From: Anaerolineales bacterium | GTDB lineage: Bacteria > Chloroflexota > Anaerolineae > Anaerolineales > UBA11579 | Direction: 5' to 3' | Length of the DNA stretch: 64,000 nucleotides | Assembly (NCBI GenBank): GCA_019637755.1 | Contig: JAHBVC010000002.1 | Span: forward strand, 124,001-188,000 | Shown here: positions 13,157 to 23,969 of the stretch, piece by piece | Layout of the letters: each line of letters opens with the position of its first letter | Numbering within the stretch: position 1 is the stretch's first letter | Notes under the pieces: model-generated | What the model was told of the DNA's origin: nothing | The model's database searches: none | The model's input: only the letters and a program-made list of their open reading frames with translations | Translations under genes and position numbers: made by a program

Positions 13157-14413
13157 ATGAAGAAACGAATTGTAATTACTGGCGTAGGCTGCCTTAGCCC
13201 GCTTGGCAATGATGTCAGCAGTTCCTGGCAGGCGGCGGTGGCCGGGGTTTCCGGCGCCGGGCGCATTACCCATTACGACCCCAGCGACTACAAGACCCAA
13301 ATCGCCTGTGAGGTGAAGGGGTTTGACGGCGCGGCGCTGTACGGCACGCGCGAGGCGCGCCGCATGGATCGCTATTCGCAGTTGGGGCTGGCTGCCGCGC
13401 AGGAAGCGGTGAAGGACGCCAATCTGACGATCACCGATGCCAATCGTTTGCGCATCGGCGCCATCGTCGGCACCGGCATCGGCGGCGCCCACACCCTCTA
13501 TGAGCAGATCAAGACCCTGGTGGAAAAGGGGCCGGACCGGGTGAGCCCGTTCATGGTGCCGATGATGCTGGCCGATACCGTCGGCGGCATGATCGCCATC
13601 CATATGCAGATCCAAGGCCCCAACTTCGCCGTGGTGACGGCCTGCGCTACCGGCACCAATGCCATCGGCGAGGCCAGTGAGGTCATTCGCCGCGGCCAGG
13701 CCGACGTGATGCTGGCCGGCGGCGCCGAAGCCGCCATCGTGCAGCCCTCGGTGGCCGGCCTGGCCAACATGACCGCGCTGAGCACGCGCAATGCCGACCC
13801 GCAGCACGCCTCGCGCCCCTTCGACAAAGAGCGCGATGGCTTCGTGATGGGTGAAGGTGCCGCCGTGCTGGTGCTCGAATCGCTGGAGCACGCCCAAGCG
13901 CGCGGGGCGCGCATCCTCGGCGAGGTGTTAGGCTACGGCAGCACCAATGACGCCTTCCACATCTCCGCCCCCTCCGAAAATGGCCGCGGCGCGGCGGACT
14001 GCATGCGCATGGCGCTGGAACAAGCCGGCATGCAGCCCGCACAGATCGATTACATCAACGCCCATGGCACCAGCACGCCGCTCAACGACAAGAGCGAAAC
14101 GGCGGCGATCAAGAGCGTGTACGGCGAACGCTCCTACGATATGGCGATCTCTTCCACCAAATCGATGACCGGCCACCTGATGGGCGCCGGTGGCGCGCTG
14201 GAAGCGGTGTTCTCGCTCCTGGCGATGCGCGACGGCATCGTACCGCCGACGATCAACTATGAAGTGCCTGACCCGGCCTGTGATCTGAATTACACGCCCA
14301 ACACGGCCGTCAAGAAAGTGATCCACACCGTGATGTCGAACTCCTTTGGCTTTGGCGGCCACAACGCCAGCATCATCCTCGGCGCGGCGCAAGACGTGAA
14401 GGCAGCCGCCTGA
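13157..14413 (+). CDS. fabF: Beta-ketoacyl-ACP synthase II
   Basis: 418 aa, full length for KAS II. It condenses malonyl-ACP with acyl-ACP in fatty-acid elongation. The catalytic Cys is in VTACATGTNAIG (~165), with His in NAHGTSTPLND and in STKSMTGHLMGA, and the glycine-rich C-terminal SNSFGFGGHNA. The ribosome site is GAAGGG. The stop codon shares one base with the fabH start (TGATG), so the pair is coupled. Confidence 0.96.
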   Translation: MKKRIVITGVGCLSPLGNDVSSSWQAAVAGVSGAGRITHYDPSDYKTQIACEVKGFDGAALYGTREARRMDRYSQLGLAAAQEAVKDANLTITDANRLRIGAIVGTGIGGAHTLYEQIKTLVEKGPDRVSPFMVPMMLADTVGGMIAIHMQIQGPNFAVVTACATGTNAIGEASEVIRRGQADVMLAGGAEAAIVQPSVAGLANMTALSTRNADPQHASRPFDKERDGFVMGEGAAVLVLESLEHAQARGARILGEVLGYGSTNDAFHISAPSENGRGAADCMRMALEQAGMQPAQIDYINAHGTSTPLNDKSETAAIKSVYGERSYDMAISSTKSMTGHLMGAGGALEAVFSLLAMRDGIVPPTINYEVPDPACDLNYTPNTAVKKVIHTVMSNSFGFGGHNASIILGAAQDVKAAA

Positions 14414-15516
14414 TGCCTTACGCTCACGTCACCGGCTGGGGCATGTCCGTGCCAGAGAAAGTCATGACCAATGACGATCTGGCCAAGATCGTAGAAACCA
14501 ACGATGCCTGGATCCGCGAGCGCACCGGCATCCGCGAGCGCCGCATCGCCGCCAAGGGGCAGACCACCGCTTCGCTGGCTGCCGAGGCGGCGATCAACGC
14601 CCTGCGCGTGGCCAAGCTGCCCCCCGCTGAGCTGGACCTGATCATCGTGTCCACCTCCTCTCCCGAGCATATCTTTCCCTCCACCGCCAGCCTGGTACAA
14701 GACCGCATCGGCGCGGATCATGCCGGCGCGTTTGATCTTTCGGCGGCGTGCACTGGCTTCATCTACGCAGTGAGCATGGCTTCGCAATCGATCCGCAGCG
14801 GTGCGATCAAGAACGCCCTGGTGATCGGCGCCGAGACGCTCTCGCGCCTGGTGGATTGGAACGACCGCACCACCTGCATCCTGTTCGGCGATGGCGCCGG
14901 CGCCTTTGTGCTGCAAGCCTCCGAGCAGCCCGGCGGGGTACTCTCCTCCGTGTTGCGCTCCGACGGCTCGGGCGGCAACCTGCTCAGCGTGCCCGCGGGC
15001 GGCAGCGCCAAGCCCGCCTCGCAAGCCACCATCGACGCGGGCCTGCACTTCATCCACATGAACGGCAACGAGGTCTTTCGCTTCGCCACGCGCGTGATGG
15101 CGGCGGCCTCCAAAGAAGCGATGGACAAGGCCAACTTGGCTGTGGAGGATGTGGCGCTGATCGTGCCGCACCAGGCCAACTTCCGCATTATTCAGGCGGC
15201 GGCGCGTGGCCTCAAGCTGCCGATGGAGCGCTTCATGGTCAACATCGAGCGCTACGGCAACACCTCCACCGCCTCGATCCCGATCGCAGTGTGCGAGGCG
15301 GCCGAAGAAGGCCTGCTCAGCAAGGGCGACAATACCGTCCTGGTAGGCTTCGGCGCCGGGCTCACCTGGGGCTCGCTGGCCCTGCAGTGGACCGGGCCGT
15401 TTGCCGAGGCCGAGCCGATCCGCATGCGCCGCTACACGCGCTTCGTCTGGCTGCGCTCGCTAATGCGGCGCATCTGGCGCCGCATCGAGGGCTTGCTTTG
15501 GGGCCGCAAGGGCTGA
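14413..15516 (+). CDS. fabH: Beta-ketoacyl-ACP synthase III with a basic C-terminal extension
   Basis: 367 aa; usual FabH is ~320. The catalytic triad is present: Cys in SAACTGFIYA (~113), His in VPHQAN and Asn in ERYGNTSTAS. The enzyme starts fatty-acid chains from acyl-CoA and malonyl-ACP. The extra ~40 C-terminal residues are very rich in Arg and Trp (RMRRYTRFVWLRSLMRRIW) and could be an amphipathic membrane-binding helix. The gene overlaps fabF by one base and is followed by a terminator. Confidence 0.95.
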   Translation: MPYAHVTGWGMSVPEKVMTNDDLAKIVETNDAWIRERTGIRERRIAAKGQTTASLAAEAAINALRVAKLPPAELDLIIVSTSSPEHIFPSTASLVQDRIGADHAGAFDLSAACTGFIYAVSMASQSIRSGAIKNALVIGAETLSRLVDWNDRTTCILFGDGAGAFVLQASEQPGGVLSSVLRSDGSGGNLLSVPAGGSAKPASQATIDAGLHFIHMNGNEVFRFATRVMAAASKEAMDKANLAVEDVALIVPHQANFRIIQAAARGLKLPMERFMVNIERYGNTSTASIPIAVCEAAEEGLLSKGDNTVLVGFGAGLTWGSLALQWTGPFAEAEPIRMRRYTRFVWLRSLMRRIWRRIEGLLWGRKG

Positions 15517-15543
15517 CCTCAGACCGGCTGCACTCTCAATCTC

Positions 15544-15577
15544 AAACACGCTGCCGAAAGGCAGCGTGTTTTTTTTT
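15544..15577 (+). terminator. Rho-independent terminator after fabH
   Basis: AAACACGCTGCC-GAAA-GGCAGCGTGTTT forms a perfect 12-bp stem with a stable tetraloop and a run of Ts on the 3' side. Confidence 0.95.
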
Positions 15578-15584
15578 GTAATCC

Positions 15585-15913
15585 GTCATTGCGAACGAAG
15601 CAACCTGCATCAAAATCCCTTTAGAACCAGATTGCTTCGTCCGTTTGTGGCTTGCATTGCATGCAAGCCACAGTACTCCTCGCAATGACAGGTCTTGCTT
15701 TAGGCCTGCCCAAATAGCCCGTCATTGCGAGCGAAGCGAAGCAATCTGGTTTAGTCCCTGCCATACATTCAGATTGCTCCGTGCGCAGGCAAGCCTGCGT
15801 CTCGCAATGACAGGTCTTGCTTTAGGCCTGCCCAAAATAGCCCGTCATTGCGAGCGAAGCGAAGCAATCTGGTTTTTGCAGTTATCGGCGTCTATCTGCG
15901 TTCATCTGTGGCA
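15585..15913. repeat. Three GTCATTGCGAG/CTCGCAATGAC elements, two in tandem duplication
   Basis: Element 1 (15585-15689) and element 2 (15721-15811) are bounded by inverted ends GTCATTGCGA and TCGCAATGAC. Element 3 (15844-15875) is a 5' fragment. The DNA joining elements 1-2 and 2-3 is the same sequence (CAGGTCTTGCTTTAGGCCTG and on), so the block arose by tandem duplication of ~122 bp. 15880-15913 is an ATCTGCGTTCATCTGTGG-type repeat. No gene lies here; the ftsH promoter follows (TATAAT at 16002-16007). Confidence 0.88.
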
Positions 15914-16039
15914 CATTTTCCAGCAAGCCGTCACCGCCAGCCGCCACCGTAAGAGATGTATAAGAAGTAAGCCGAGGATAAACAAGCGGGGCGGGGGTTG
16001 GTATAATCCCGCGATTGTTCTAATTTCCGGAGGCCCCGC

Positions 16040-17929
16040 TTGAATAGCCCTCGTACTCGAGTTTCACTGATCTATATCCTCTTCCTGGCGGCGCTGGCCT
16101 TTTTCGTCGTCTTCAGCTTCCAACAGCAAACTGGCGCCCAGGAGACCCTGACGCTAAACCAGGTGGCTGCGGATATCAAAGCTGGGCAAGTGAGCCGGCT
16201 TGTGACTGACGAAGAAACCCTGCGCCTGGTGTACAGCGATGGCACCGAGCGCACCGCGCTGCGTGAAGCTGGCCAAACCACCGTGCAGCAACTGCTCGAT
16301 CTCGGCGTCACCGCCGAAGAGCTGGATGCACAGAATATCGAGCTGGAAGTGCGCCCCCCCAGCGCCTGGCTGGGCATCCTGACCGTACTGACCTACTTGG
16401 GGCCCTTGATCTTTGTCGGCCTGATCTTCTGGTTCGTGATGCGCCAGGCCCAAGGCAGCAACAACGCCGCCATGTCGTTTGGCAAATCGCGCGCCCGCAT
16501 GTTCTCCGGCGAAAACCCCACCGTCACGTTCAACGATGTGGCCGGTGTGGAAGAAGCCAAGGTGGACCTGCAAGAGATCGTTGAGTTCCTCAAAGAGCCG
16601 GAGAAGTTCATTGCCCTCGGTGCACGCATCCCCAAGGGTGTGTTGCTAGTGGGCCAGCCCGGCACCGGCAAAACCCTGATGGCCAAAGCCGTCTCTGGTG
16701 AGGCGGGCGTGCCGTTCTTCTCCATCTCCGGTTCGGAATTCGTGGAGATGTTCGTCGGTGTCGGCGCCAGCCGCGTGCGTGACCTGTTTGAGCAGGCCAA
16801 GCGCCATTCGCCCTGCATCATCTTCATCGATGAAATCGATGCGGTTGGCCGCCAACGTGGCGCGGGCCTGGGCGGCAGCCACGATGAACGCGAACAGACC
16901 CTCAACCAGATGCTGGTGGAGATGGATGGTTTCGACACCGATACCAACATCATCATGATCGCCGCCACCAACCGCCCCGACATTCTCGACCCGGCGCTGC
17001 TGCGCCCGGGCCGCTTTGACCGCCGCGTAACGATGGACCCGCCCGATGTGAAGGGCCGCGAAGCCATCCTGAAGGTACACGCCCGCGGCAAACCGCTGAG
17101 CAAGGAAGTCAAGTTGGAAACGCTGGCGCGCGCCACCCCCGGCTTCGTCGGCGCTGACCTGGAAAACCTGGTGAACGAGGCGGCGATCCTCTCCGCCCGC
17201 CGCAACAAGAAGACCATCGGGCAGGAAGAGCTGGAAGAAGCGGTGGAACGCGTGATGCTGGGCGGCCCTGAGCGCCGCAGCAAGCTGATCAGCCCGGAAG
17301 AGAAGCTGATCGTGGCCTATCACGAAGCCGGCCACGCCATCGTGGGCCACGTGCTGCCGAATGCCGACCCGATCCACAAGATCACCATCGTGCCACGCGG
17401 CCAGGCCGGTGGGTACGTACTGGCGCTGCCCGACGAAGATCGCGACATGATCAGCCGCAAGAAGCTGACCGAACGCATGATCGTGGCCCTGGGCGGCCGC
17501 GCCGCCGAAGAGCTGGTGTTCGACGACATCACCTCCGGCGCCTCGAGCGACATCCAAACCGTCACCAACATCGCCCGCCAGATGGTGATGCGCCTGGGCA
17601 TGAGCGAGAGCCTGGGCAACCGCGTGTACGGCCAGAAGGAAGAATTGGTTTTCCTGGGCCGTGAGATCTCGGAGCAGAAGGACTACTCCGAGGCGATGGC
17701 CGAGCAGATCGACAAGGAAGTTTTGAAACTGGTCAACACGGCCTACGTGCAGGCGCGCAAGATCCTGACCAAGTATCGCCGCGAGCTCAAGAAGCTCGCT
17801 GAGAAGCTGGTAGAGGTGGAAACCCTTACCCGCGAAGAGTTCGAGAAGATGATGCCTAAAGTGGCCCCCAAGCGCATCGGCGGAACGCCGGCGCTGGTGC
17901 CGGCCGCCAACGGGCGCAGCGCCAAGTAA
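16040..17929 (+). CDS. ftsH: ATP-dependent membrane zinc metalloprotease FtsH
   Basis: 629 aa. TTG start directly after GGAGG. Two N-terminal membrane helices (~7-28 and ~113-133) flank a small external domain. An AAA+ domain follows with Walker A GQPGTGKT, Walker B IIFIDEID and the second region of homology ([19 protein letters not shown]). The M41 protease domain has HEAGH (zinc) and a downstream Asp ligand. FtsH degrades membrane and short-lived regulatory proteins. Monocistronic, with its own terminator. Confidence 0.97.
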
Positions 17930-17945: not shown

Positions 17946-17978
17946 AAAAAAGACCGGCCAAGGCCGGTCTTTTTTTTG
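17946..17978 (+). terminator. Terminator between convergent ftsH and acyl-AMP ligase genes
   Basis: AAAAGACCGGCC-AA-GGCCGGTCTTTT with T runs on both strands; it can end transcription from either side. Confidence 0.93.
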
Positions 17979-18006: not shown

Positions 18007-19644
18007 TTAGCCGCCAAACTCACGCAGGTACTTCTCACGATTGTCTGTGCGGGCGTGCTTACCGCTGGAGGTCTTCAAAATCCAGCCGCGCGGCACAAAA
18101 CGCAGATCGCCCACAGTGACCTCGGTCTCTTGCACCACCTTGGCACGCAGCTCTTGCTCCGCGGCGGCCGGGTCAGCGCCCTCGTGCAGCTCGCAAAGGA
18201 TGATGACCTTCTCAGAGCCCATGCGCTCATCCAGCACGCCGAAGGCCACGGCGCGGCCGGGATACACGCCCGTGGTGCGGTTGGCAATGTCTTCAAGGTC
18301 TTGCGGGTAGATGTTCTTGCCGCCCACGATGAGCAGATCCTTCTTGCGGCCACTGATGTACAGCTCGCCGTCCGCCAGGTAGCCCATATCGCCGGTCAGG
18401 TACCAGCCATCGGCGGTGATGGCCTGCTCGCTAAGGTCCGGGCGCTTGTAGTAGCCGCTCAGCATGAATTCACTGCGTAAGCCAATCTCCCCTACCCTGC
18501 GCTCAGGCAGCGGGTTGCGTTCAGCGTCAAAGATGCCCAGCTGCACGCTTTCAATCGGCGCACCACAGCTCACCACGCGCTTACCCTCGGCAGCGGGCAC
18601 GGCCTCGCCGCGTTCTTGCAGCGCGGCAATCTCCACCACGTCTACCTTGGGCGGCTGGCCCAGCGCGGTCTGCGTGACGGCGAAGGTGTTCTCCGCCATG
18701 GCATAGCTCACGCCCAAGGCGTTGGGCGAGAAGCCAAATGGGGCCAGCTTCTCGGCAAAAATTTGGTGGCTCTCGTCATACACCGGTTCGGAGCAGTTGA
18801 TCACTGCCCGCCACGTGGAAAGGTCAAACTCGGCACCGGGGCGCACACTGCGCGCAATCAGCTTGTAGGCAAAGTTGGGCAGCCAGCACAGCGTGCCGCG
18901 GTGGCGGCCAATCGCCTCCAGCAGGCTGGTGGGCTGGCGCACCCACTCAAATGGCGACATGAGCACCAAATGCGTGCCGGTGAGGATGGGAATAACGAAG
19001 CCAGCAATCAGCCCCATGTCGTGATACAGCGGCAACCAACTAACGATGACATCCGTATCCGGGTTCAGCGCAATCGACTTGCCGTAGGCCTCAACCTGGC
19101 GCAGCACGGCGCGGTGCGAAAGGGCTACGCCCTTTTGCAGGCCGGTGCTGCCGCTGCTGTGTTGCAGCAGCGCCACCGCATCGGGGTCGAGCTGCGGCGT
19201 GGGTGGCAGGCTGGCGTTGGCGGTATCCGCCGTGGAAAGCACGGTGCAGTCAACATCCGCCAGCAGCTGAGCCAGCGAAGCGTAAAACTCGGGATAGGTG
19301 ATGACCACCTTGGCGCCCTCGTGCTCTACCAGGGTCTTGACGCGCTGGCGGTACAGGTCAGGATCGAGCTTCTCGGTCAAAAATGGAAAGATGGAGGGTA
19401 CTGCGCCCAGCAAGGTGGCGCCCCAGAAGGCGTACACCAGATCCAGCGAGTGCTGCAACACCAGAATGACCAGCTCCCCGGCGCCCAAGCCCGCGGCAGC
19501 CAGGCGGCCGCTGTAGGCTTGCGCCGCCTGCAAGAATTCGTGGCGCGTGATGGTGTGCTCGGCGCCGCGCTCAATGAAGGTGAGCGCGGGCTGCTGGGGC
19601 GCCTCAGCGGCGCGGGCGGTTAGGGTAGATACAAGCGTAGACAT
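18007..19644 (-). CDS. Acyl-AMP ligase / long-chain acyl-CoA synthetase-like enzyme (FAAL-like)
   Basis: 545 aa adenylate-forming enzyme. The ATP-binding P-loop is HSSGSTGLQKGVALSH (~165), and A8-type motifs include GWYLTGDMGYL and GRKKDLLIVGGKNIYP. The catalytic Lys is near LKTSSGKHAR at the C-terminus. The sequence looks closer to fatty-acyl-AMP ligases than to DltA. It is the last gene of a minus-strand operon after a carrier protein, two SGNH-type proteins and an MBOAT. In that setting it should load an acyl group onto the carrier protein, the role DltA has for D-alanine. Substrate unknown. Confidence 0.9.
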   Translation of the reverse strand: MSTLVSTLTARAAEAPQQPALTFIERGAEHTITRHEFLQAAQAYSGRLAAAGLGAGELVILVLQHSLDLVYAFWGATLLGAVPSIFPFLTEKLDPDLYRQRVKTLVEHEGAKVVITYPEFYASLAQLLADVDCTVLSTADTANASLPPTPQLDPDAVALLQHSSGSTGLQKGVALSHRAVLRQVEAYGKSIALNPDTDVIVSWLPLYHDMGLIAGFVIPILTGTHLVLMSPFEWVRQPTSLLEAIGRHRGTLCWLPNFAYKLIARSVRPGAEFDLSTWRAVINCSEPVYDESHQIFAEKLAPFGFSPNALGVSYAMAENTFAVTQTALGQPPKVDVVEIAALQERGEAVPAAEGKRVVSCGAPIESVQLGIFDAERNPLPERRVGEIGLRSEFMLSGYYKRPDLSEQAITADGWYLTGDMGYLADGELYISGRKKDLLIVGGKNIYPQDLEDIANRTTGVYPGRAVAFGVLDERMGSEKVIILCELHEGADPAAAEQELRAKVVQETEVTVGDLRFVPRGWILKTSSGKHARTDNREKYLREFGG

Positions 19645-19710
19645 CTAAAATGATCGAGACCAGCAGACCAAGTGACTAACGGACAGTCGCTTGGTCAATT
19701 AGTCCGCGGG

Positions 19711-19965
19711 TCACTTTGCGCGCCCGGCAATTAACTCAGCAAGTTGGTTGAGCGTGTCAAACGTCTCAGCATTCAGCTCGGTGTCATCAATACGCACACC
19801 CCAGCTCTGCTCTACGAACAGAGCCAAATCCACCAGCGAGAAGGAGTCGATTAGGCCACCAGAAATCAGCGCTTCATCTGCGCCAATGGTCTTGTCTGGG
19901 CGCTTGAGCAGCTCGGTGACGATGTAGGTATTCAGCTTGGAAATGATTTCGTTTTTATCGGTCAT
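19711..19965 (-). CDS. Acyl carrier protein (DltC-like role)
   Basis: 84 aa four-helix carrier protein. The phosphopantetheine attachment serine is in GGLIDSFSLVDL (~41). The spacing and GLIDSFSL core resemble both ACPs and DltC. The ATG overlaps the stop of the upstream SGNH lipoprotein gene by 4 nt. With the acyl-AMP ligase downstream and the MBOAT upstream it is best read as the carrier that presents the activated acyl group to the membrane acyltransferase. Confidence 0.93.
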   Translation of the reverse strand: MTDKNEIISKLNTYIVTELLKRPDKTIGADEALISGGLIDSFSLVDLALFVEQSWGVRIDDTELNAETFDTLNQLAELIAGRAK

Positions 19966-21242
19966 CGTGTCTCCACGCCCCAGTGTATCAGCGACTGGCG
20001 CAAGGTATCAAGAGTCTTCAGGCCTACATAGGAGCGCACGCTCCAGGCTTCGTAGGTGATGTGAAAATCAGGCGGCTGTAAACCCTTATCGCGATCCAAA
20101 TCCAGACCGTGATCGGGCAGCGGTTGGGCGGCGCGCCACCAGTTGATGAGCGGAATGTCGTAGTCGTAGGCTACGCGGGCGGTAGCCGCGTTGATGGCGT
20201 GGCCGCCTTCAACGTTGTCAGCCTTGGTGAGCAGAATAGGGATCACGTTGTGGGCCAGCGCGTAGTCCACCGCCTGGCGCAAGTAGTCTTCGTAGTTCTC
20301 AGCAGTGCGGCCTTCGTAGACGAATTCCATCGAGATAAAGATGAAGGATGGCTGCCAGGTGCGTATTTCGCAGGCCAGCGGGTCTTCGCCATTGTCACAT
20401 TCGGCCGGGTCAGCGCGCAGCGGCGTGAAGATGGCGGGGAAGTTGTAGCCGCCATCCACTGCCAAGCCATCACGATTGAAGGAACCCGTGAAGTGGCTGA
20501 CCGTCTCCAGCAGGTACTGCTCATCTGCCGGGAAGGAGAAGCGTTCAGGGATGTCATACACGCCCATGAACGCTTCAGGAATGTTTTGGCAATCACCCGC
20601 CACGGAAAAATGCTGCGGGTTGTTGCCCTGCGCCAAGCCGGCGGCATACACCTGCCCCAGCCACTCGCTAGGCTCAGGGATGATGGGCCAGCTGCGCCAG
20701 TCGGCCGGCAGCGGGCGCGTATCTGGCGTGGCGGTGTGCTGCGCGGCGGCGGCAGCCGGCGTGCTGGTGGCCGGCTCAGCCGGCTGTGCCGTAGCGGTGG
20801 CCTGTGCCTCGGCCATCTGCGAATTGCTGGCCAGCCCGCACATCTTCCACTCGCCGCCATCCACCACAGCGCTAAAGACGCGGCCACCCAGCTCATCCAG
20901 CTGGTCTTCACCACCGGCGTAGCTGTAGCGCACTTGGCCAGTGCAACTCACCAAGGCCGAGTCGCCCTCCTGCGCCAGCAGGCTGCAGTCGAGATTCTCA
21001 AGCTGAGTCTGCACGCCTTGATAAGCGGCAGCCTCCAGGCGCGCCTGCGCCTCCCAGGCTGAGCACGAGGCGTTGATGGCGCCCACCTCATCTACCGAGA
21101 CGAGCGCTTGCAGGTAGCTTTCCACGGCGGACGCCGGGGAGCCAGCCGCCGCGCCACCGGAGCAGGCGGCGAGCAGCAGCGCGAGAAAGATGAATTTAGG
21201 GATTGAGGTCAAACTGGGTAGAGAGGGTCTCAAGGAGTTCAT
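19962..21242 (-). CDS. Lipoprotein with C-terminal SGNH-hydrolase-like domain (DltD-like role)
   Basis: 426 aa. Signal peptide with lipobox LLLAACSG (Cys27). A small NTF2-like N-terminal region (~35-130) and a Thr/Ala/Pro-rich linker follow. The C-terminal ~230 residues have SGNH-like elements including VIPILLTKADN and a terminal DFHIT that may supply the Asp/His pair; the N-terminal Gly-Asp-Ser block is not obvious. It overlaps the upstream SGNH gene by 47 nt. It probably acts at the outer face of the membrane in the acylation pathway; catalysis is uncertain. Confidence 0.75.
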   Translation of the reverse strand: MNSLRPSLPSLTSIPKFIFLALLLAACSGGAAAGSPASAVESYLQALVSVDEVGAINASCSAWEAQARLEAAAYQGVQTQLENLDCSLLAQEGDSALVSCTGQVRYSYAGGEDQLDELGGRVFSAVVDGGEWKMCGLASNSQMAEAQATATAQPAEPATSTPAAAAAQHTATPDTRPLPADWRSWPIIPEPSEWLGQVYAAGLAQGNNPQHFSVAGDCQNIPEAFMGVYDIPERFSFPADEQYLLETVSHFTGSFNRDGLAVDGGYNFPAIFTPLRADPAECDNGEDPLACEIRTWQPSFIFISMEFVYEGRTAENYEDYLRQAVDYALAHNVIPILLTKADNVEGGHAINAATARVAYDYDIPLINWWRAAQPLPDHGLDLDRDKGLQPPDFHITYEAWSVRSYVGLKTLDTLRQSLIHWGVETR

Positions 21243-22314
21243 AAGTGAATTGAAGTGTACCCTGCGGGGTCAGGTGAATTGGCGTGTTGGTGAACTGATC
21301 GTTGGCGGCCGCCTGCCACAGGTCGGCGTAGTGCCAGCCTTGCGCGGCGGCCTCGGCGGCCAGCAGGCTGCGGTAGCCATCGTAGGCCCAGCGCGGATAG
21401 AAGGAGTTGTAGCGCAAGTCACTGTTGGCGCCAGCGCTGGCAAAGATGGGCTCGTTGATGACCAGCACGGGCACCTGCCCGGCGCGCGCCACCCCGGCCG
21501 CCAGCACTTCGAAGGCCAGTTGGTCGGCTAGCAGCGGCGACTGCAGGCTACCGTAAGCCTCGCTGGCCTCAAGGTCAATAGCGTGGCGGGCGTAGTTATC
21601 CGGAATGTGGACATCTATGCCAGTGGCGGCCCAGGCGAAGCCGTAGAGCTGCAAGCGCAGCAGGTCAGCCAGGTTGCGGCGCTGTTCGATGAAGAAGAGA
21701 TTTGAGATTGGAGATTGAGGTGCCTCGGACACGCTGACTGGCAGTTGGTAACGCTCCACAAGTGCAGAGACGCGTTGCGGGTTGTTCTGCACCAGCGGCG
21801 ACGCAAGTTGCTTGTCCCACGGGAACGCTTCGAGCGTTGTCGGCCACAGGATAAGGTCGGGTTGGTATTGCATGGCCTCATCTAGAAGCATCAGGTCTTT
21901 AGTGAGCGAGATGGTGGGATGGCCGAGGTTGTAGAAGACCACGCGGCGGCCATCGACACTGTGCAAGTTGGCGGAATTGAGCTGCGCTACCAGCGTATCG
22001 TCGTTCTCGAGTAGGAATCCCCATACCGATGAATCGCCGATCACGAAGACGCGGAACTCGTCCGCCGCCTTGGGCGCGCCAGCCAACACGTGGCTGGCAA
22101 ACATCGCCTCGACACTATAGAGGTTGAGGTTGTAGGAGCGTTGCGGGTCATCGCCATAGGGCAAACGCTCACGGCCGGGCAAGACGTGGTTGTACAGGCT
22201 CAATTGGCCCAGTGCTGGCATGGGGTTGAATACCCCACACAGCAGATTGAGGCCGAGGAACAGCAGCGCCGCTTTGACCAGCAAGCGCAACGGGGAGATT
22301 GTTTGTGTTTGCAT
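21196..22314 (-). CDS. Membrane-anchored SGNH/AlgX-DltD-like protein
   Basis: 372 aa with one N-terminal membrane anchor (~10-28). The SGNH block I is VFVIGDSSVWGFLLEND (~89-105) with the nucleophile Ser95 or Ser96. A C-terminal block NTPIHLTPQG probably carries the catalytic His. The fold class includes DltD, AlgJ/AlgX and PatB, which act outside the membrane with an MBOAT partner to transfer acyl groups to polymers. It starts 2 nt after the MBOAT gene. The target polymer is not apparent. Confidence 0.87.
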   Translation of the reverse strand: MQTQTISPLRLLVKAALLFLGLNLLCGVFNPMPALGQLSLYNHVLPGRERLPYGDDPQRSYNLNLYSVEAMFASHVLAGAPKAADEFRVFVIGDSSVWGFLLENDDTLVAQLNSANLHSVDGRRVVFYNLGHPTISLTKDLMLLDEAMQYQPDLILWPTTLEAFPWDKQLASPLVQNNPQRVSALVERYQLPVSVSEAPQSPISNLFFIEQRRNLADLLRLQLYGFAWAATGIDVHIPDNYARHAIDLEASEAYGSLQSPLLADQLAFEVLAAGVARAGQVPVLVINEPIFASAGANSDLRYNSFYPRWAYDGYRSLLAAEAAAQGWHYADLWQAAANDQFTNTPIHLTPQGTLQFTYELLETLSTQFDLNP

Positions 22315-22316
22315 GT

Positions 22317-23714
22317 TTAGCTCATCCCCAACAACACGCGCAGCACATGCAGCGCATCCTCAGGATGCGGCAGCACGAACCACACCCACCCCAGGGCAAC
22401 ATAGATGAATGTGCCTAGCACGGAGAGCGCATGCTGCCAGCGGGCGGGCGCCGGGGCGCCTTTGCGCGCGGCGGCAAACTGGCTGTGGGCGAACAAGCCC
22501 AATCCGTGCCACACACCCCAAATAAGGAAGTTCCATGTGACGCCATGCCACAAGCCGATGAGCGCCATCGTACTGACTTGCCCCACCAACACCACGGCCC
22601 ACACCGGCCATTGCTGTGTGCGCAGGAAGCGTGTGAGCGGATTGAAGAAGTAGGCCCGGAACCAGTGTGCCAGCGTGATGTGCCAACTGTTCCAGAAAGC
22701 GGTCAGGTTGGGCTGGTTGTACGGGCGGGCAAAATTCTCCGGCAGGCGCACACCGAATAGCAAACCCAAGCCGATGGCAATGTGGGTGTAGCCCGCAAAA
22801 TCAAAGAAGATGCGCCAGGCATAGGCGATCAGCAGCAACCACATCCACAGCGTGGAGCTGGTCTGCGCGCCAAGAACAGGATTGAGCGCAAAGTAGGCCA
22901 GCGCATCCGCCAGCACAAATTTCATAAACAGGCCGCTTACCAAGCGCTGCCCGGCGGCCTGCAACTCTGCCGCGCCGAGCACGAAGCTGGCTTGCACTTG
23001 CGGCACGAAGCGCTCCACGCGCTCGATGGGGCCAGCGGTCAGCGCGGGAAAGAAAACGACATAGGTCACGAAGTCACGCAGGCCGTAGTGCGCCAGGCGG
23101 CCCGCAGCGCGGTCTCGCAGGGTGTGAACCAGCCGGAAGGCAATGTAGGAGAAGCCCAGCCAGTTGAGGTCAAAAGCGGTAGCCAGGCTGGCGTCTTGCC
23201 CGCTCAGACTGCGCAGCGCCGCGCTGAGGCTGCGTGTCAGCGGCTCGGCTTTGAGCGCCACCAGCACGGCCAGCACCGCCAAAACAGCAGCGCTCAGGGC
23301 GGCAGCCCGGCCGCGGCCCCAGCGGCTGGCCAGCCAGGCCAGCACGCCTAGCACCAGCGCCAGCACAAAAACAAGCTCTACTTGCGGAGGGCGGCTGGCG
23401 GTGAGCAGCGGCGTGGGTAGGTAGCGCGTGGCGGCCAGCACCAGGCCGCCCAGCGCAAGCGCAGCGGCGGCCAGTTTGTCCTCACGCGTCAGGCTGGCGC
23501 CCGTGGGCAGCGTGAGCGCCCATACGATGGCGGCCAGGCCCAGGCTGGCGGCAGGCAGCCAAAAATCAAAGCCGCGCACCAGCGCGGCGGGTTGCAGCCA
23601 GAACACGGCCAGCGCCGAGGCGGCGAACAGCAGCCAGGGGCGGCTGATGCGGCCATAGGTGCGGCCAGCCAGCAAGCCCAGAATGGCAAAGATGAGGATT
23701 TGATGCAGAGTCAC
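22317..23714 (-). CDS. MBOAT-family membrane acyltransferase (DltB/AlgI-like)
   Basis: 465 aa, GTG start 15 nt after the DltX-like gene. Twelve or so membrane helices. The MBOAT signature is intact: ENFARPYNQPNLTAFWNSWH, and the conserved histidines His390 in LIGLWHGVTWNF and His403 in GVWHG. DltB-type MBOATs take an acyl group from a cytosolic carrier protein through a central pore for transfer outside. The neighbours supply carrier, ligase and SGNH partners, so this is the core of a Dlt-like system. Confidence 0.93.
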   Translation of the reverse strand: MTLHQILIFAILGLLAGRTYGRISRPWLLFAASALAVFWLQPAALVRGFDFWLPAASLGLAAIVWALTLPTGASLTREDKLAAAALALGGLVLAATRYLPTPLLTASRPPQVELVFVLALVLGVLAWLASRWGRGRAAALSAAVLAVLAVLVALKAEPLTRSLSAALRSLSGQDASLATAFDLNWLGFSYIAFRLVHTLRDRAAGRLAHYGLRDFVTYVVFFPALTAGPIERVERFVPQVQASFVLGAAELQAAGQRLVSGLFMKFVLADALAYFALNPVLGAQTSSTLWMWLLLIAYAWRIFFDFAGYTHIAIGLGLLFGVRLPENFARPYNQPNLTAFWNSWHITLAHWFRAYFFNPLTRFLRTQQWPVWAVVLVGQVSTMALIGLWHGVTWNFLIWGVWHGLGLFAHSQFAAARKGAPAPARWQHALSVLGTFIYVALGWVWFVLPHPEDALHVLRVLLGMS

Positions 23715-23729
23715 TTTAAGTGCCCCGGG

Positions 23730-23849
23730 TTAAAAGCCCTGGTAGATCCACAGCGGCGCGCTATCGCTAGTGACGATGAGTAGCGCGATGACAATAAGGC
23801 AGAGCAGCACCGCGTAGAAGTTCTCGCGGGAGAGTAGCTTTTTTAGCAT
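23730..23849 (-). CDS. DltX-like 39-aa membrane micropeptide
   Basis: A 39-residue gene immediately before the MBOAT. It has a basic N-terminus (MLKKLLSREN), one hydrophobic helix (FYAVLLCLIVIALLIV), then a short polar stretch and the C-terminus APLWIYQGF. DltX proteins in teichoic-acid D-alanylation operons have the same plan and end in a Phe-x-Tyr-x-x-Phe-type motif; here the end is Trp-Ile-Tyr-Gln-Gly-Phe. Work on DltX has proposed that its C-terminal Tyr carries the acyl group between DltB and DltD. Position, length, topology and terminal motif all agree. A TATAAT at 23859-23864 lies 9 nt ahead of the ATG. Confidence 0.82.
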   Translation of the reverse strand: MLKKLLSRENFYAVLLCLIVIALLIVTSDSAPLWIYQGF

Positions 23850-23858
23850 AGAGAGTAA

Positions 23859-23864
23859 ATTATA
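23859..23864 (-). promoter_or_regulatory. -10 box of the Dlt-like operon, probable leaderless start
   Basis: TATAAT on the minus strand, ending 9 nt before the ATG of the DltX-like gene. Initiation 6-7 nt downstream would leave a leader of only 2-3 nt. No clear -35 box is seen. The region from 23879 to 23940 is a degenerate GGTC-rich spacer. Confidence 0.55.
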
Positions 23865-23969
23865 CGAGTAGTTGCAGAGTCTCTTGGTCCATTGGTTGGC
23901 TGGTCAAGCTCCGACCAGTTAACTAGCAGACCAGATGACGGCCATATCTACTCAAGATACAATCATCCA

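Follow-up and report, generated by a model that had tools for sequence, protein, structure and literature searches.

A Dlt-like operon with a conserved DltX-like microprotein and a fatty acyl-AMP ligase-like enzyme in Anaerolineae

A six-gene operon occupies positions 18007-23849 of the minus strand in a stretch of 64,000 nucleotides (the window) from the genome of an Anaerolineales bacterium (Chloroflexota; assembly GCA_019637755.1, contig JAHBVC010000002.1, positions 124,001 to 188,000). Its genes run head to tail in the order X-B-S1-S2-C-A. They encode a microprotein, a membrane-bound O-acyltransferase (MBOAT), two proteins of the SGNH fold, a carrier protein and an adenylating enzyme. From the gene set, its conservation and co-occurrence, a split motif, the protein families and the predicted folds, all computed directly, we infer the chemistry, the acyl chain, the acceptor and the role of S2, and we judge it likely that the operon encodes a Dlt-like relay that carries acyl groups across the membrane and is adapted to a fatty-acyl cargo. 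A first-pass annotation of the window had proposed a six-gene operon on the Dlt plan; all six minus-strand frames are present, and their families and folds match. The genes are as follows.

23730-23849, minus strand: X, microprotein of 39 aa with a single transmembrane segment and the C-terminal sequence WIYQGF
22317-23714, minus strand: B, DltB-like MBOAT of 465 aa with a GTG start; PF03062, histidines of WH and WHG conserved
21196-22314, minus strand: S1, predicted membrane-anchored SGNH acyltransferase of 372 aa; GDSS nucleophile motif, DltD-like overall architecture
19962-21242, minus strand: S2, SGNH lipoprotein of 426 aa; N-terminal alpha/beta domain and SGNH domain, GDCQ replacing GDS (Cys218)
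19711-19965, minus strand: C, dedicated acyl carrier protein (ACP) of 84 aa; PP-binding, DSF phosphopantetheine site
18007-19644, minus strand: A, fatty acyl-AMP ligase (FAAL)-like adenylating enzyme of 545 aa; FAAL-type insertion, SWLPLYHDMG motif

The genes are closely packed: X and B are separated by 15 bp and B and S1 by 2 bp, S1 overlaps S2 and S2 overlaps C, and a gap of 66 bp precedes A. The window genome (2.26 Mb, 96.8% complete) is of the same class as the Anaerolineae genomes that carry the same operon.

The microprotein and its partners across the class

X has a basic N-terminus and one transmembrane segment, and its charge and hydropathy are consistent with an N-in/C-out orientation. 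In an alignment of 39 sequences, E9, A13, P32, W34, I35, Y36, Q37 and F39 are invariant and G38 nearly so, and every sequence keeps the pattern P-x-W-I-Y-Q-x-F. Close pairs differ mostly at third codon positions, which indicates purifying selection, and the ratio of non-synonymous to synonymous polymorphism (pN/pS) is ~0.29. In 45 of the 53 loci compared, X is the gene immediately upstream of B; where the two are not adjacent, X is found on another contig (G156), at a distance of ~13 kb (G201) or immediately after A (G232).

The association was counted by profile searches of 298 genomes of the class, with thresholds of E<=1e-8 for X and E<=1e-55 for B. The counts were taken by hand from the match lists and come from related genomes that are not independent, although the matches span many families. 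X was found in 71 of the 298 genomes and B in 70, all 70 having X. Among the remaining 228 genomes, the only one with X is G021, a fragmented assembly with an interrupted frame, and none of the 25 genomes with weaker MBOAT matches only has X at its threshold. Of the 70 genomes with B, 67 have S1, as do three of the 228 others, all incomplete assemblies. Linkage of X, B and S1 persists where X or S1 is not adjacent to B. The module is self-contained, in that no further neighbour recurs in more than seven of the compared loci.

Because the 39-aa frame is conserved at the protein level across Anaerolineae, is constantly partnered with B, whether adjacent or in the same genome, and evolves under the low pN/pS given above, it is not a chance reading frame, and X is a genuine gene. 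The first-pass annotation had reported a DltX-like micropeptide outside Firmicutes and had staked this on conservation of the frame in relatives; the conservation and the tie to the MBOAT bear it out. Its wording of X as the operon's own DltX goes too far if taken as family membership. Searches against Pfam gave X chance-level matches only and no match to the DltX family (PF12459), and in a profile comparison with DltX (hhalign) the probability was 7.9%, with the alignment confined to the hexapeptide region. PF12459 was absent from ten genomes behind fetched loci, mostly of Bacillota, and the DltX sequences for this comparison were therefore taken from further genomes in the class to which G298 belongs. 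A search of 400 genomes sampled from the phylum found X in this class only. X is thus not detectable as a member of PF12459 and may be described, from its sequence, as a putative functional analogue of DltX built on the DltX plan.

The MBOAT and the split motif

B matches PF03062 and scores 203 bits against the DltB model TIGR04091, under the equivalog cut-off of 375. Its best matches in the PDB are DltB structures (6bug, E 1e-62; 8jem), its C-terminal end is the same as that of DltB, and H345 and H390 are invariant. B is without a C-terminal F-x-Y-x-x-F of its own, and the hexapeptide is carried by X instead. A fused hexapeptide is the usual condition in bacterial MBOATs of this kind, and nearly all others fetched, those of other phyla included, have a C-terminal F[IL]YxxF. 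The window genome has a second MBOAT (L072:7637-9079, plus strand; G000:C1), which ends in a fused FIYFQF; a single cell thus has the split and the fused architecture.

In a tree of 61 rows, made by a quick search with SH-aLRT supports and without bootstrap, the Anaerolineae B sequences form a single group (support 99). A larger set, made up of these sequences, DltB and two Clostridial MBOATs, is split from the rest of the tree (SH-aLRT 99). The tree fits a carrier-dependent, split ancestry shared by B and DltB, though the exact sister relation is weakly supported (16).

The anchored SGNH protein

The Pfam matches of S1 and S2 to SGNH families are weak, but their predicted folds are clearly SGNH. 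The structure of S1, predicted with confidence (predicted local distance difference test score, pLDDT, 91.5), consists of an N-terminal helix and an SGNH fold. The longest alignments listed in a structure search were to DltD entries (285, 275 and 267 residues; Z 14.1, 14.1 and 13.8), but TesA-like folds exceed DltD in Z and other SGNH folds score equal or higher. No DltD sequence model matched S1 in the family-model searches. S1 keeps G93-D94-S95 and H347, of which S95 and H347 are invariant. With H345 and H390 of B, the tyrosine of X and the co-occurrence of the three genes, these residues place the operon in the broad class of MBOAT-SGNH acyl-tyrosine relays, with a predicted activity to match.

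Ligase and carrier

A, an AMP-binding ligase, scores 385 bits against a long-chain ligase model and 343 bits against a FAAL subfamily, whereas the DltA model TIGR01734 gives it (as P0006) 20-22 bits with a cut-off of 560. The rest of the window genome holds no DltA above that cut-off. The top PDB matches of A are FAALs or FAAL-like loading enzymes (3pbk and 3kxw first), ahead of any CoA ligase, and A carries a FAAL-type insertion of ~20 residues that is absent from the genome's own fatty acyl-CoA ligase. The earlier identification of the ligase as FAAL-like and not DltA is thereby upheld. C is a PP-binding carrier with the DSF site in most relatives; it reaches 20.2 bits against the DltC model TIGR01688 (cut-off 52), and the ACP models nearest to it are those of ornithine-lipid and cispentacin pathways. 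FAALs hand fatty acids to holo-ACP and reject CoA (PMC8460268). By its family features A is FAAL-like, its loading activity is predicted, and the cargo is most likely a fatty acid.

The acceptor

LpxC is absent from the window genome, and a search that did not extend to lipoteichoic acid synthase gave no TagB/F-type teichoic acid gene there. The lack of both agrees with the Chloroflexota literature (PMC13319060). A glycan or lipoglycan of the envelope other than wall teichoic acid or lipopolysaccharide is the probable acceptor, which accords with the first reading of the sequence as far as wall teichoic acid is concerned.

A proposed relay and its alternatives

In the proposed relay, A would activate a fatty acid to acyl-AMP and load holo-C, as the FAAL hallmarks suggest. 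On the cytoplasmic side B would then accept the acyl group from its thioester and pass it to Tyr36 in the W-I-Y-Q-x-F of X at the outer face, by analogy with DltB/DltX and PatA. From the acyl-tyrosine of X the group would move to Ser95 of anchored S1, which would esterify an extracytoplasmic acceptor. S2 may act after or beside S1, either as a second transferase or as an esterase with a part in trimming or redistributing the acyl group. The steps from MBOAT to tyrosine to SGNH protein follow the acyl-tyrosine shuttle of Dlt and PatAB (PMC12148441). A more specific proposal, which we put forward tentatively and hold somewhat less probable than not, is that the operon represents a third class of MBOAT/SGNH relay. 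Such a relay would export fatty-acyl chains from a FAAL-loaded carrier by way of an acyl-tyrosine on the microprotein. Two SGNH transferases, first one of Ser type and next one of Cys type, would take them over, and either a surface lipoprotein or a glycan of the envelope would be lipidated.

Several points weigh against a fatty-acyl relay. A and C stand beside B in only 26-28 of the 53 loci, and their tie to X-B-S1 is therefore weaker. The acyl substrate is assigned by homology alone, and FAAL-like ligases might take other carboxylic acids. Homology of X to DltX is not demonstrable by profile comparison, the likeness lying in the hexapeptide and the layout only. Lastly, no glycosyltransferase or polymer gene recurs near the operon across the compared loci.

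The first of these points also favours the best placed of the alternatives, in which the relay transfers acetyl or other short acyl groups in the manner of PatAB or AlgIJF, and A and C are unrelated passengers. Most described bacterial MBOAT/SGNH pairs are indeed O-acetyltransferases that use acyl-CoA (PMC12148441), and only about half of the loci have A and C adjacent. We nevertheless think this improbable: many families of the class, like the window, have A and C in one gene string with the other components, and B groups with carrier-using DltB and apart from the fused-motif MBOATs.

Slightly less probable again is true D-alanylation or another aminoacylation, in which the FAAL-like A takes the place of DltA and loads D-Ala on C. 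The closeness of B to DltB, the DltX plan of X, the dedicated carrier and the DltD-like architecture of S1 would all suit it. It is opposed by the scores of A, by its FAAL insertion and SWLPxYHDMG motif, by the poor fit of C to DltC and by the failure to find a TagB/F-type gene. Least probable of the three is a lipid or lipopeptide operon, in which A and C supply chains, B acylates a membrane lipid and the SGNH proteins hydrolyse it; the ACP models nearest to C, the TesA-like folds of S1 and S2 and the existence of lipid-acylating MBOATs lend it something, but no lipid-assembly gene recurs nearby, and the strict co-occurrence of B with a Tyr-hexapeptide microprotein and an anchored SGNH protein points to an outward relay.

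The Cys-type SGNH lipoprotein

The best structure matches of S2 are TesA, CE3 esterases and PatB (8tlb: Z 13.9, root-mean-square deviation 3.0, 172 residues). In the structure alignment Cys218 aligns with Ser10 of TesA, provided that the first residues align ungapped. Both the window protein and the operon copies located between S1 and C have GDC as nucleophile motif, whereas some paralogues have GDS. More widely, in the Anaerolineae family of SGNH lipoproteins (window 19962-21242, L033, L042, L048 and others) many members have Cys for the catalytic Ser of GDS, and in some loci GDS and GDC paralogues stand side by side. In many relatives the N-terminal domain of S2 is encoded by a separate gene, located upstream of X.

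Duplication of the SGNH component, as first suggested, is rejected by the profile comparison of S1 with S2 (17.6% probability over 36 columns), and the two belong to separate SGNH families. S2 was likewise rejected as a core component, its family, counted by hand, not being found in eight of the 70 genomes with B and being present in 17 without B. S2 would be accessory to the relay. It is a speculation that its thiol nucleophile could favour transfer above hydrolysis.

Comparison with known systems

The operon shares with DltXABCD of Bacillota a ligase, a carrier, a DltB-type MBOAT without a fused motif, a single-TM microprotein with a C-terminal [FW]IY[NQ]xF and an anchored SGNH protein. It differs in its FAAL-like ligase, in a carrier that is not DltC by model and in its X, which has no PF12459 match and has W in place of the first F of the hexapeptide, the Tyr being invariant. 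The order X-B-S1-S2-C-A, the extra Cys-type SGNH lipoprotein, the lack of a detectable TagB/F and the occurrence in the class Anaerolineae are further differences. With PatA/PatB and other fused-motif pairs it has in common an MBOAT with an SGNH-fold partner and, by analogy as far as the chemistry is concerned, an acyl-Tyr in a C-terminal hexapeptide. In those pairs, however, the motif is fused to the MBOAT, the donor is acyl-CoA and there is neither carrier nor ligase, whereas here the motif is on a microprotein and both carrier and ligase are present.

The FAAL signatures of A and the adjoining stand-alone ACP recall the pairs of the mycobacterial FadD32 type and the E. coli FAAL (3PBK). To our knowledge, the characterized pairs deliver the acyl chain to products of polyketide synthases or non-ribosomal peptide synthetases. 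The partner in the Anaerolineae operon would instead be a transmembrane MBOAT relay.

A 2025 paper describes the non-Dlt MBOAT/SGNH pathways as having neither a carrier nor a DltX-like microprotein (PMC12148441). The operon is an exception to this statement, as both are present outside Bacillota, and none of the papers found in our literature search reports such a system. The acyl-tyrosine shuttle has so far been defined in Dlt and PatAB, and the ligase here points to fatty acids. If the proposal is right, a Dlt-type machine lets bacteria esterify their outer surface with lipid chains, and the Chloroflexota envelope, of which little is known, becomes open to experimental test through it. X is in addition a class-wide conserved microprotein family that matches no Pfam model.

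Split modules in other phyla and surroundings of the operon

Split DltX-like microproteins are also encoded on contigs of Candidatus Peregrinibacteria and Candidatus Chisholmbacteria; in each case the neighbouring MBOAT has no fused motif, and an SGNH gene is present.

L098:3875-3994, plus strand: split DltX-like microprotein ending in MFIYNNF
L096:3406-3654, plus strand: split DltX-like microprotein ending in EFIYVDF

On a Clostridiales contig (L086:6548-10961, plus strand) an SGNH gene is followed in order by a DltB-like MBOAT, a 43-aa open reading frame ending in FQYVGF and an acetate-CoA-ligase-like enzyme; this is another split module without DltA. L089 has a like SGNH-MBOAT pair, with the ligase on the opposite strand. 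To judge from the split modules in the candidate phyla radiation and in Clostridia, the Dlt plan may be a more general architecture whose cargo is exchangeable.

Downstream of A the operon faces a convergent ftsH.

17946-17975, no strand: terminator-like bidirectional hairpin between the operon and ftsH, with a 13-bp stem followed by a T run

This hairpin has the longest stem of the terminator-like sites in the region, where such sites are not above the shuffled mean. The convergent genes (13157-17929, plus strand) comprise, besides ftsH, two ketoacyl synthase (KAS) genes, KAS-II-like and KAS-III-like, for which a link to the acyl supply is possible.

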